DNA of 64,000 nt, from assembly GCF_023278365.1 (NCBI RefSeq), contig NZ_CP075338.1, forward strand, positions 2,542,001 through 2,606,000, given 5' to 3'. The position numbers and the translations under genes are program-made. Below, piece after piece: positions 725 to 63,079 of this stretch (position 1 is the first letter of the stretch; every line of letters begins with the position of its first letter). Under the pieces are notes generated by a model. The model ran no database searches. It was given only the letters and a program-made list of their open reading frames with translations, and was not told the origin of the DNA. The DNA is from Epilithonimonas zeae. GTDB lineage: Bacteria > Bacteroidota > Bacteroidia > Flavobacteriales > Weeksellaceae.

Positions 725-2260
725 TTATTGATGTAACGCTTCGGTTTTCATCAGATATTCTTTTACTTTTTGCAAATATGGATACATCACCATATCATCA
801 GAAAAAGCCGGAATTATTTTTCTAATCTCGTCATACAATTCTTTTGTTGAAGATGAAATCCTGTCTTGAAAACCAAGATATTCAATGGCTTGAACAATGG
901 TAATTAACTCAATTGATAATACTTCGAAAGCATTTTCTATCACTTTTCTACAGATTACTGCCGCATTGGTTCCCATACTTACAACATCCTGATTATCATT
1001 ATTGTTAGGAATACTATGAACGTACATTGGATTCGACAACATCTGGCTTTCCGCCGTTGTAGAAGTTGCCGTGAACTGAACACCTTGCATACCGAAGTTG
1101 AAACCTAATTTCCCCAAATTTACAAATGGAGGAAAGATTTCATTGATTTTAGAATTCAAAAGATAGTTCAATTGTCTTTCTGCTAACATTGTCAGTTTTG
1201 TAACAACAATTTTCAGCTTGTCCATTTCCAAGGAAATATAATCCCCGTGGAAATTACCGCCGTGATAAACGTGTTGATCATCAACATTGATAATCGGATT
1301 ATCATTAGCAGAATTGATCTCGTTTTCAAGTACATTTTCTGTATATTGCAACGTGTCCAGAACCGGTCCCAAGATCTGAGGAACACATCTTAACGAATAA
1401 TATTCCTGAACTTTTTCTTTGAAAACTTTATTCTGCTCCTCAAAGCTCGTATATAAGTGGTCTTCTCTTTTTCTAATTAACTTACTATCAGATAAATAAT
1501 CTCGCATTTTCTCAGCAACCTTTTGTTGTCCGAGATGCTTTTTAGTTGCATTCAAAGATTCTGAAAAATGGTCATCGTAAGCCTGAACCAATTCATTGAT
1601 TGCGCAAGATAATTTAATAGAGATATCAGTTAGTTGATTGGCTTTATATGCATTTACGATCCCGATTCCTGACATCACAGAAGTTCCGTTCATCAAGGCC
1701 AAACCCTCACGGATCTCGACTTTTATTGGTTCTAATCCTAATTCTGCAAAAACATCTTTTGTTGATCTTCTTTCGTTGTTATAAAAAACTTCACCTTCGC
1801 CAATAAGAACCAAAGCCAAGTGTGCCAACTGAACCAAATCACCACTTGCACCAACACCGCCGTGCTCGAAAATCAAGGGTGTAATATCTCTGTTAATTAA
1901 TTCTTTAAGCAAATTCACAACGGAATCGTGAACGCCAGAATGTCCTAATGACAAAACATTCAGTCTTGCCAACATACAAGCCTTAACTTCATCCGCTGGC
2001 AAAGTATTTCCGATACCCGAAGAATGGCTTCTTATCAAATTATACTGGAGCTGATGTGTATCGCTATCGTTGATTTTGAACTGTGCCATTGGCCCAAAAC
2101 CAGTATTGACACCATAAATGACTTTGTTCTTTGAAAACTCTTTTAGAAATTGGAAACTGGCATTAACTCTTTGCAAAAGTGAATCATCCAACTCAACATT
2201 TTCATTTTCAATAATCACCCTTTGGAAATCCCGAATGCTTAAATGGTTGCTAATTTTCAT
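725..2260 (-). CDS. Tyrosine ammonia-lyase (HAL/PAL family) of the flexirubin type
   Basis: Expected to deaminate L-tyrosine to 4-coumarate, the aryl starter of flexirubin pigments. The 511-residue protein has the MIO-forming Ala-Ser-Gly in GVGASGDLVQ, the YGVNTGFGP loop carrying the catalytic Tyr, and the NSANDNP and YVHSIPNNNDNQD segments of the family. The selectivity loop reads NLIRSHSSG. From memory the sequence is very close to the characterised Flavobacterium johnsoniae tyrosine ammonia-lyase over its whole length. Start is ATG at 2260. Pipelines often call such genes hutH. A hut operon does lie near 56-58 kb but without a lyase, so histidase activity cannot be fully excluded. Cluster context favours tyrosine. 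Confidence 0.85.
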   Translation of the reverse strand: MKISNHLSIRDFQRVIIENENVELDDSLLQRVNASFQFLKEFSKNKVIYGVNTGFGPMAQFKINDSDTHQLQYNLIRSHSSGIGNTLPADEVKACMLARLNVLSLGHSGVHDSVVNLLKELINRDITPLIFEHGGVGASGDLVQLAHLALVLIGEGEVFYNNERRSTKDVFAELGLEPIKVEIREGLALMNGTSVMSGIGIVNAYKANQLTDISIKLSCAINELVQAYDDHFSESLNATKKHLGQQKVAEKMRDYLSDSKLIRKREDHLYTSFEEQNKVFKEKVQEYYSLRCVPQILGPVLDTLQYTENVLENEINSANDNPIINVDDQHVYHGGNFHGDYISLEMDKLKIVVTKLTMLAERQLNYLLNSKINEIFPPFVNLGKLGFNFGMQGVQFTATSTTAESQMLSNPMYVHSIPNNNDNQDVVSMGTNAAVICRKVIENAFEVLSIELITIVQAIEYLGFQDRISSSTKELYDEIRKIIPAFSDDMVMYPYLQKVKEYLMKTEALHQ

Positions 2261-18417: not shown

Positions 18418-19698
18418 TTACAATCCGAATTCTTTTTTAATATCCTCTACTCGATCCAGTTTCTCCCAAGTGAAAAACTCCAGATCTTTCAGGGTTAATT
18501 CGTTTTTCTGTCCTTTGTTGAAGGTTTTATCAGCTACGTAATAATCTTTCCCCATATGTCCGTAAGCTGCAGTTTCTATATAGATAGGATTTCTCAATTT
18601 AAGATTTTTCTCAACTGCATAAGGTCTAAGGTCAAACAATTGCTGAACTTTCTTAGCCAATTCTCCATCATTGATATCCAATTTTGAAGTTCCATAAGTA
18701 TTGATATAAAGTCCACAAGGCTCTGCAACACCAATCGCATAAGAAACCTGAACCAAAACCTCATCTGCAACACCCGCAGCCACTAAATTTTTAGCAATGT
18801 GTCTTGTTGCATAAGCTGCGCTTCTGTCCACTTTACTTGGATCTTTTCCTGAGAAAGCACCACCACCGTGAGCACCTTTTCCTCCGTAAGTATCAACGAT
18901 GATTTTTCTTCCCGTCAAACCTGTATCTCCGTGAGGACCACCGATTACAAATTTCCCAGTTGGGTTGATATGGTATTTGATATCCCCATTGAACAATTCC
19001 TGAATTTCTGGTTTCTGTTTAGCCTTAACTTTAGGAATTAAAATTTCGATGATATCTTTTTTGATTTTTGCTAACATCGCTTCTTCACTTCCGAAATCAT
19101 CGTGTTGTGTAGAAACAACAATACTGTCGATTCTTACAGGTTTGTGATCATCAGAATACTCGATTGTTACTTGAGATTTTGCATCTGGACGCAAGTAAGG
19201 AATTGCGTTTCCTTCTCTTCTAAGATCTGCCAATTCTTTCAAAATCTGATGAGCAAGATCCAAAGCCAAAGGCATATAATTTTCAGTTTCGTTGGTGGCG
19301 TAACCGAACATCATTCCTTGATCACCAGCACCTTGAGCATTTGCTCTCGTTTCAAAGTCTGTTTCGTCCAAAGTTCTGTCAACACCCTGATTGATATCCG
19401 GAGATTGTTCGTGAATCGCAGAAATCACACCACAAGAATCACCATTAAACATATATTCACTTTTCGTGTAACCAATTTTGTTGATGACATTTCTGGCGAT
19501 TTGCTGAACGTCCAGATAAGCTTCAGACTTCACTTCTCCAGCCAAAACAACCTGACCAGTCGTCACAAGCGTTTCACAAGCTACTTTTGAGTTTTTATCA
19601 TAAGCTAAGAAATGATCGATAAGTGCATCAGAAATCTGATCTGCAACTTTATCAGGATGCCCTTCAGAAACTGATTCGGACGTAAATAAATAAGACAT
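18418..19698 (-). CDS. metK: S-adenosylmethionine synthetase
   Basis: Makes SAM from methionine and ATP. The 426 residues are typical for Bacteroidota, longer than the 384 of E. coli. Signatures are [18 protein letters not shown] at the N-terminus, [12 protein letters not shown] (the ATP-binding hexapeptide) and [16 protein letters not shown] (phosphate loop). ATG at 19698 is preceded by AAAAGGAA, one of the few clear ribosome binding sites in the window. That site is sequestered in a long leader with a SAM-II-like aptamer (19704-19824), which points to feedback control by SAM. Confidence 0.98.
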
Positions 19699-19703
19699 AA
19701 ATA

Positions 19704-19824
19704 AATTCCTTTTATATTAATTTGTTTAAGGATAAACTACTGATTGTAAAAAGGAACTAAAAGAGAAAAATCTGTTTTAGCATTTTTTATTGAGGTTGCA
19801 ATCAGTCAAAGTTCTCCTCCGTTT
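19704..19824 (-). promoter_or_regulatory. Candidate SAM-II-type riboswitch and expression platform of metK
   Basis: Read on the minus strand. The aptamer spans 19820-19772: P1 GAGG (19819-19816) with CCTC (19795-19792) around a 20-nt loop ending TTGCAA. An A-rich joiner and GCTAAAA (19781-19775) follow. Pseudoknot pairs are CTG (19805-19803) with CAG (19774-19772), and GCA (19799-19797) with TGC (19782-19780). Loop length, TTGCAA and GCTAAAA match my memory of SAM-II. Downstream, AGTTCCTTTT (19758-19749) can pair with AAAAGGAATT (19713-19704), covering the ribosome binding site. CAATCAGT-AGTT (19746-19735) is complementary to aptamer ACTGATTG and AACT, giving a competing 12-bp helix. This suggests SAM-induced translational repression. 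Confidence 0.75.
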
Positions 19825-19840
19825 ATTCAAAAATCGAGGG

Positions 19841-19870
19841 CAAATTTACAAAGTAATTCTCAAACTTCAA
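19841..19870 (-). promoter_or_regulatory. Promoter of metK
   Basis: On the minus strand TAAATTTG (19848-19841), with TTG (19870-19868) 19 nt upstream. Transcription would begin near 19835, giving a leader of about 137 nt that holds the whole riboswitch. Confidence 0.75.
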
Positions 19871-19898
19871 AATCAATTCCTATTAATTGAGTATGAAT

Positions 19899-20852
19899 TT
19901 ATTCAGGTTTAATGCTCGTATAATTTTCCGGATCTTTATAATAATTAAGCCTTTGCTCCATTGATATTCTGATTTCAGAAATCAACTCATCGATGATTTT
20001 TTGCTTGTAAGTTGGCTTATAATAGATCACACTCATTTCTCGATAAGGGAAAGGCTTGATGAATCTTGAAACCTTAGTCTTCTGTTCCGATGACAATTGC
20101 TGAACACCCATTTCTGATAAAATCGTAATTCCGCCTACTTTATCAACCATTTGAATTAATGTATTGACATTGGAAGCTAAAAATTCTAAGTTATTAGGCT
20201 TCAAAGAATTCTCTTTCAGATGACAGATATTCTCGAATTGTGTTCTCAGGCAGTTTCCTTCTTCCAAAAGCCAGACTTTGTTCACGTCAATATCTTCCGG
20301 AACGACGAAACAATCTTTTTTTGTTCCTTCTTCCTGACCCGCAGAATAAAGCATCAACTCTTCATTGAAAAGAAAATCCTGATAAAACTCGTCTGCTGCA
20401 GAATAAGGCGTAGAAATAATTCCTGCGTCCAATTCTCCGGATTTCAAAGATTTGATGATACTTTCTGTCGTCATTTCTTTGATATTCAGTTCGATTTGAG
20501 GATTCTTTTTAAGAAAACTAAAAATTTCGTTTGGTAAAATATAGCTGGAAACTGTCGGGATGATTCCGAGATTTAATTTTCCTGCAAGAATATTATTCAG
20601 GAAATTCGCTTTGTTTTTCAATTCCATTACAGAATCGATTACTTTTTGCGCTTCTTTGATGATTTCACCACCTGCATCTGTCGTCCTGATGGGATGCGTT
20701 GTTCTATCAAAAACTTTCACATCAAGCTCATCTTCAAATTTCTGAATCATTGCGCTAAGTGTTGGCTGAGTTATAAAACAAGCTTGCGCAGCTTTACCAA
20801 AATGTTTATATTTATCTACTGCAATCAGATATTCTAGTTGTTGTATGTTCAC
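19899..20852 (-). CDS. oxyR: Hydrogen peroxide sensor, LysR-type regulator OxyR
   Basis: 317 residues. N-terminal winged helix (MNIQQLEYLIAVDKYKHFGKAAQACFITQPTLSAMIQ) and a periplasmic-binding-like effector domain. The key feature is GNCLRTQFENIC: Cys201 and Cys210 are nine residues apart, as are Cys199 and Cys208 of E. coli OxyR, the redox switch that forms a disulfide with peroxide. It is divergent from katA, which it very probably activates. A good promoter box, TATCTTTG, lies at 20885-20878. Confidence 0.9.
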   Translation of the reverse strand: MNIQQLEYLIAVDKYKHFGKAAQACFITQPTLSAMIQKFEDELDVKVFDRTTHPIRTTDAGGEIIKEAQKVIDSVMELKNKANFLNNILAGKLNLGIIPTVSSYILPNEIFSFLKKNPQIELNIKEMTTESIIKSLKSGELDAGIISTPYSAADEFYQDFLFNEELMLYSAGQEEGTKKDCFVVPEDIDVNKVWLLEEGNCLRTQFENICHLKENSLKPNNLEFLASNVNTLIQMVDKVGGITILSEMGVQQLSSEQKTKVSRFIKPFPYREMSVIYYKPTYKQKIIDELISEIRISMEQRLNYYKDPENYTSIKPE

Positions 20853-62884: not shown

Positions 62885-62930
62885 TTTTTAATTTAATTTT
62901 TATCGTCGATTGAAAGACCAATCTTCAACA

Positions 62931-63027
62931 TAGCCCCGATAGGAACGGCATCCTTTTTTGTTTTTCTGAAAATTTTCTATTGATGACAAAACGTCGTAAA
63001 CAAAAAAGATATAGTGGATAGCGGGTT
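62931..63027 (-). ncRNA. Structured intergenic element between metZ and metH
   Basis: About 100 nt able to fold on itself. The outer arm is CCCG (62935-62938) with CGGG (63022-63025). The inner arm is ATCCTTTTTTGTTT (62950-62963) with AAACAAAAAAGAT (62998-63010), with one bulged base. I recall similar sequences between many genes of flavobacterial genomes. A small hairpin TTTCG-CGAAA (63037-63050) within a repeated AACTTGTT follows. Could be a structured RNA, an attenuator or a mobile palindromic repeat; the strand is not certain. Confidence 0.45.
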
Positions 63028-63079
63028 GGGAACTTGTTTCGAAGACGAAAACTTGTTGCTCCTAATTCCTTCGATTCCT

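Follow-up and report, generated by a model that had tools for sequence, protein, structure and literature searches.

The SAM-II aptamer is an H-type pseudoknot. Weinberg et al. 2010 (PMC2864571) list its long-loop group, RF01726, for Bacteroidetes and for sequences of marine origin; the leader described here shares with that listing the phylum and an aptamer recognised by covariance model, and the passages of that paper on RF01726 describe no expression platform, details being given in its Additional File 1. Among SAM-II riboswitches, terminator platforms have been predicted in alpha- and beta-Proteobacteria (PMC2258182). In Sinorhizobium meliloti, where SAM-II aptamers likewise precede met genes (metZ and metA), the predicted metZ terminator platform lies outside the aptamer and the metA AUG2 start codon lies 74 nt downstream (PMC9373788). 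A platform separate from the aptamer, which a first-pass annotation of the present locus had regarded as unusual for SAM-II, is thus not new in itself. The riboswitches described under "translation attenuation" (PMC2258182) resemble the switch proposed for this locus, in that a ligand decides whether a hairpin hides the start or an alternative helix forms. Additionally, mRNAs of Bacteroidetes are reported to be without Shine-Dalgarno sequences and the ribosomes of Bacteroidia not to recognise them, and in Flavobacterium johnsoniae initiation is reportedly tuned by structure at the start site (PMC6847099; PMC9976891). For the long-loop group, we found no description of a platform that combines an anti-aptamer strand with start hiding in the literature covered, which consists of main texts from mostly open journals (the 2010 supplement being the likeliest place for one); term matching in the text of PMC12121620, PMC13273304, PMC7366714, and PMC9723704 returned no mention of it either.

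The window analysed here (the whole stretch of 64,000 nt from Epilithonimonas zeae) contains metK, encoding a methionine adenosyltransferase of 426 aa, at 18418..19698 on the minus strand (TIGR01034 equivalog, 515.3 bits against a cut-off of 309.4). The first-pass annotation had named the SAM-II class for the metK leader from its sequence alone, proposing a search with the Rfam SAM families as a check, and the covariance model search bears it out: the leader, considered over 19704-19825 of the minus strand, scores 61.2 bits for RF01726, the SAM-II long loop aptamer (gathering score 44), at 19767-19825 (-); the match is full-length (model positions 1-60 of 60), and its structure line gives nested pairs only. 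No further Rfam family, RF00521 included, is listed for 19600-19950 at E up to 1. The family match is established, and both the aptamer class and its placement upstream of a SAM/methionine gene are expected for a catalogued riboswitch and not new; the aptamer presumably binds SAM. From the end of the match (19767) to the metK start codon (19698) there are 68 nt, which leaves the ribosome site outside the 3′ strand of the aptamer, the strand that holds it in SAM-II riboswitches acting by direct occlusion.

Upstream of the aptamer, at 19841..19871 on the minus strand, we identified a promoter-like pattern, TTTG-N19-TANNTTTG. The annotation had derived a leader of about 137 nt from a good promoter; the pattern, read from 19871 to 19841, does fit a start about 137 nt before the AUG, but with three occurrences in the window (both strands, spacers of 18-20) it is weak evidence for a promoter. 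A simple consensus scan of 19650-19950 identified zero terminator-like sites (a G+C-rich hairpin followed by a U run), a result that carries little weight because shuffled sequences average 0.1. The AU-rich hairpin GCTAAAA/TTTTAGT was considered as a terminator and rejected, since its formation is expected when SAM is absent, opposite to what control of metK would require. The leader differs from the S. meliloti riboswitches, which have a Rho-independent terminator and a Shine-Dalgarno sequence within the riboswitch (PMC9373788), in showing no terminator-like site in that scan and no conserved Shine-Dalgarno sequence.

When the leader is folded freely from 19825 to 19674, the minimum free energy structure is predicted to dismantle the aptamer. 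Within the aptamer's 5′ half (captured segment 19799..19814), ACTGATTG at 19806-19799 pairs with CAATCAGT at 19746-19739 and, across a 3-nt bulge, GAACT at 19814-19810 pairs with AGTTT at 19738-19734, the invading strand being CAATCAGTAGTTT (19734..19746, minus strand), which starts 20 nt beyond the end of the aptamer match. The annotation had described this complement as 12 bp with a 3-nt bulge; it is present in the fold as those 12 bp plus one G-U pair, giving a predicted helix of 8+5 bp that competes with the aptamer. Two extensions re-pair the A-rich joiner and the 3′ strand of the aptamer (19775..19789, minus strand): TAAAAA at 19789-19784 with TTTTTA at 19752-19747, and GCTAAAA at 19781-19775 with TTTTAGT at 19762-19756. 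Folding a slightly longer stretch retains the same core and extends the outer helix further. AAGGA at 19711-19707 is still weakly paired with TCCTT in the free fold, so that opening of the start region is incomplete there.

With the aptamer masked, AGTTCCTTTT (19758-19749, minus strand) pairs with AAAAGGAATT (19713-19704, minus strand) over 10 bp; the 3′ arm covers positions -15 to -6 before the start codon, and the anti-aptamer strand falls within the loop. The 10-bp hairpin near the start that had been read from the sequence is therefore recovered in full. The annotation had further held the long helix and this hairpin to be topologically incompatible. The exclusion stands on other grounds: the partners of the joiner and 3′ strand (19747..19762, minus strand) have seven bases in common with the 5′ arm of the hairpin, so that 7 of its 10 bases (19758-19756 and 19752-19749) are paired elsewhere in the predicted apo fold and the two structures directly exclude each other, whereas topology alone would not suffice, as the order of the strands permits a pseudoknot. 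The annotation's identification of AAAAGGAA as the buried ribosome site does not survive comparison, since relatives bury AAAAGAAA, AAAACACACA, AAACTAAGT, or the start codon instead; we rejected AAAAGGAA as a Shine-Dalgarno sequence on the grounds that it is not kept between genera and that ribosomes of Bacteroidia are reported to ignore such sequences (PMC9976891, PMC6847099). These two observations suggest that the hidden target is the start region itself.

Computed energies for the window's leader set both pairings apart from shuffled sequence. The anti-aptamer duplex reaches -18.7 kcal/mol where 200 dinucleotide-shuffled tails give -12.4 (p=0.01); for the start hairpin duplex the corresponding values are -9.3 and -6.4 kcal/mol (p=0.04). 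Where the bound state is modelled by removal or masking of the aptamer, pseudoknot and ligand energies lying outside the model, the cost of opening positions -18..+4 rises from 3.3 to 8.3 kcal/mol once the aptamer is removed, a predicted switch of 5.0 as compared with 0.6 kcal/mol in shuffles (p=0.01 of 100). Neither single-state opening energy in this leader is significant against shuffles (p=0.07 for the apo state, p=0.14 for the bound state), the two states give nearly equal mean unpaired probabilities for -18..+4 (0.51 and 0.52), and the leader as a whole has an unexceptional folding energy (z -1.58).

A broader comparison took in 47 genera of the window's order, each represented by a single leader; the genera are not fully independent of one another. 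The anti-aptamer duplex averages -17.5 kcal/mol against -11.4 in dinucleotide shuffles and is significant (p<0.05) in 34 of 47 genera, while the duplex between tail and start region averages -6.4 against -5.2 (Wilcoxon 0.008) and is significant at the same level in 12 of 47 only. The start region has a mean unpaired probability of 0.58 in the presence of the aptamer and 0.47 in its absence, the former value being the higher in 36 of 47 representatives. Opening -18..+4 costs on average 3.1 kcal/mol when the aptamer can pair and 6.7 when it is removed, as compared with 4.1 and 4.8 kcal/mol for shuffled tails; the resulting switch of 3.6 against 0.68 kcal/mol (Wilcoxon 2.5e-9) is significant (p<0.05) in 25 of 47 genera, and the bound state alone in only 11 of 47. 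Prediction and comparison thus both yield two mutually exclusive structures, one of them over the start region, with a start-site switch that is not significant in 22 of the 47 genera (L103 and L030 of family f3 among them). That proportion suggests that the anti-aptamer strand is the general part of the platform and the start-hiding part lineage-specific. In leaders L103-L105, L161, L162, L164-L169, and L171 of family f3, a long insertion, apparently amounting to one or two additional hairpins, separates the 3′ strand of P1 from the A-rich joiner; the insertion-bearing loci in the start-site test, L103 and L105, are both non-significant.

Column-by-column covariation of the hairpin was abandoned, the 3′ arms of two genera falling out of register in the alignments, and partners were instead swapped among genera. 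True partners perform better than swapped ones on all three measures (z -9.7 for aptamer with tail, -6.2 for tail with start region, and -11.9 for the switch), and none of 100,000 permutations equalled them on any. The result holds for each measure among the 29 genera of the window's family and likewise among the 18 others, the weakest, tail with start region, giving p=0.00005 and 0.0028, respectively. Co-evolution of these segments is established across the 47 genera, which, within the reach of sequence comparison, supports the competing downstream structures that the annotation had proposed. In nested folds, the tail pairs (P>0.5) with the aptamer loop or with the P1 strand in 46 of 47 representatives and in 143 of the 146 loci, and with the loop alone in 36 of 47, in 121 of 146, and in 16 of the 23 leaders of the window's genus; as the model gives the pseudoknot no score, these counts are biased towards the anti-aptamer fold. 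Counting anti-aptamer pairs within a genus would be of little use, as the aptamer strand hardly varies there. Change with pairing kept is seen at some loci: L018 and L090 have an aptamer loop altered to TTTGGCCTATTG with a matching GCCAAATCTTCC downstream, and L078 combines an aptamer TAAGTGGA with a downstream TCCACTTA.

The letters of the start-hiding hairpin also vary. Across relatives, its arms read AGTTCCTTTT/AAAAGGAATT, GTTTCTTTTGT/ACAAAAGAAAT, TTCTATT/AATAGAA, TTCCTGA/TTAGGAA, TGTGTGTTTT/AAAACACACA (as in L001), TTTCTTGT/ACAAGAAA, or GGCTATTTTC/GAAAATGGCT; as the pairing is kept while the letters vary between genera, the hidden stretch is defined by its place and not by its letters. All 23 leaders of the window's genus, representing 18 distinct sequences, form AGTTCCTTTT/AAAAGGAATT or a near variant when the tail is folded by itself. 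In another genus (g26), long arms of the form (G)TTTCTTTTG(T)/(A)CAAAAGAA occur in 25 of 35 leaders, with shorter or different helices in the remaining 10. Four of these exceptions (L136, L137, and L140 with TTCTATT/AATAGAA; L138 with TTCCTGA/TTAGGAA) have an altered start-side arm that pairs with a different upstream strand; the others are L108, L124, L130, L131, L139, and L145. In two further genera, g40 and g50, the strand extends over the start codon itself (GGCTATCTT/AAGATGGCT and GGCTATTTTC/GAAAATGGCT, respectively).

Matches to RF01726 above the cut-off were recovered in 82 of 98 relatives and, in separate searches, in 23 of 23 genomes of the genus and 307 of 320 of the family. Twelve family genomes have no match, nine of them being all the searched members of a single genus, g16 (G037, G100-G107; 0 of 9), whereas 29 of the family's 33 genera have one. 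Phylum-wide, 45 of 296 genomes have a match, 41 of them past the cut-off and 36 of the 45 in the window's order, in searches that, like all those spanning over 40 genomes, used stricter filters at which weak matches are lost. A metK start, recognised by protein motif, lies downstream at 112 of the first 115 loci; of the remaining three, one is at a contig end and two are matches below the cut-off. Ten genomes of genus g20 have second RF01726 matches, which were dropped, the six examined scoring 30.9-31.8 bits, below the cut-off.

Other regulatory RNAs were also noted. In five genomes of three families (the L023 locus, G068, G071, G078, and G080), SAM-II and SAM-I (RF00162) riboswitches stand back to back on opposite strands, 66-136 nt apart; at L023, SAM-II (1501-1560, minus strand) faces metK and SAM-I (1651-1753, plus strand) faces an ORF that we take to be metH-like. 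The window's own genome has two SAM-I riboswitches outside the window (G000:C1:2608900-2609004 and 1469163-1469265), and a Flavo-1 RNA (RF01705) lies within it at 62928-63032 on the plus strand (63.2 bits; gathering score, 42).

These data suggest that the metK leader is probably a translational OFF switch built on the SAM-II long-loop aptamer, a reading drawn from folding models and comparison. When SAM is low, the anti-aptamer strand would invade the aptamer's 5′ half, and the A-rich joiner and GCTAAAA strand would pair with the U-rich stretch between the aptamer and the anti-aptamer strand; most of the hairpin's 5′ arm would be consumed, leaving the start region more open and metK expressed. 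When SAM is high, the ligand would hold the pseudoknot and free the tail, the hairpin would close over the nucleotides just before the AUG, and 30S loading would fall. The target would be the A-rich start region itself, as ribosomes in this group reportedly do not depend on Shine-Dalgarno pairing. We infer that the aptamer binds SAM, that binding turns metK off, and that control acts at translation; an OFF direction fits feedback on metK. As compared with the "translation attenuation" riboswitches (PMC2258182), the switching strand here would be the 5′ half of an H-type pseudoknot aptamer, and the target a start region without a conserved Shine-Dalgarno sequence.

The same aptamer and anti-aptamer switch could instead act on mRNA level, for example if the pyrimidine-rich strand freed by SAM served as a site of Rho-dependent termination or of decay. 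The far stronger support for the anti-aptamer strand than for the start-hiding duplex (34 against 12 of 47 genera) and the 22 of 47 genera without a significant start-site switch would both accord with such an output, as would the effect that SAM-II can have on RNA stability in S. meliloti; high SAM stabilised RNAs in that organism, however, the opposite of repression by decay (PMC9373788). Moreover, control of mRNA level does not need the co-evolution of tail with start region (z -6.2), and the hairpin is present in the tail-only fold of every leader of the window's genus; we consider control of mRNA level unlikely for this locus. The chief reservation about start hiding comes from the genera that lack a significant start-site switch, nearly half of those compared, in which the output may be mRNA level, or the energy models may miss the structure.

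Two other accounts would make the downstream pairings incidental. A review assigns SAM-II to the direct-occlusion group (PMC10907184), and the bound pseudoknot might itself block ribosomes; the 68 nt between aptamer and start codon, together with downstream pairings that exceed both shuffles and swaps, make this very improbable. That the pairings are chance products of an AT-rich leader skewed in purines and pyrimidines would suit the unremarkable energy of the whole leader, the ease with which A/U-rich arms pair, and the equal unpaired probability of the window leader's start region in both states. This account, which we hold the least probable of all, is disfavoured by the dinucleotide shuffles and between-genus swaps over 47 genera, and by arms that acquire new letters within one genus (L136, L138).

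Taking the translational OFF switch as the preferred reading for the window, it is an evenly balanced question whether the platform is general: across Flavobacteriales, perhaps Bacteroidota at large, the SAM-II long-loop family may carry a downstream strand that is complementary to the aptamer's 5′ half and coupled to a fast-changing hairpin, or to the start codon itself, hiding a start region without any conserved Shine-Dalgarno sequence, so that RNA structure alone would exert control, on ribosomes that make no use of Shine-Dalgarno pairing. For a phylum in which ribosomes reportedly ignore Shine-Dalgarno sequences, this makes a testable switch of a catalogued aptamer, and partner swapping between genera can test expression platforms where column alignments fail. 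If RNA structure alone gates the start region, the leader would offer a small SAM-responsive part for Bacteroidota and a natural system for studying how their ribosomes choose starts.
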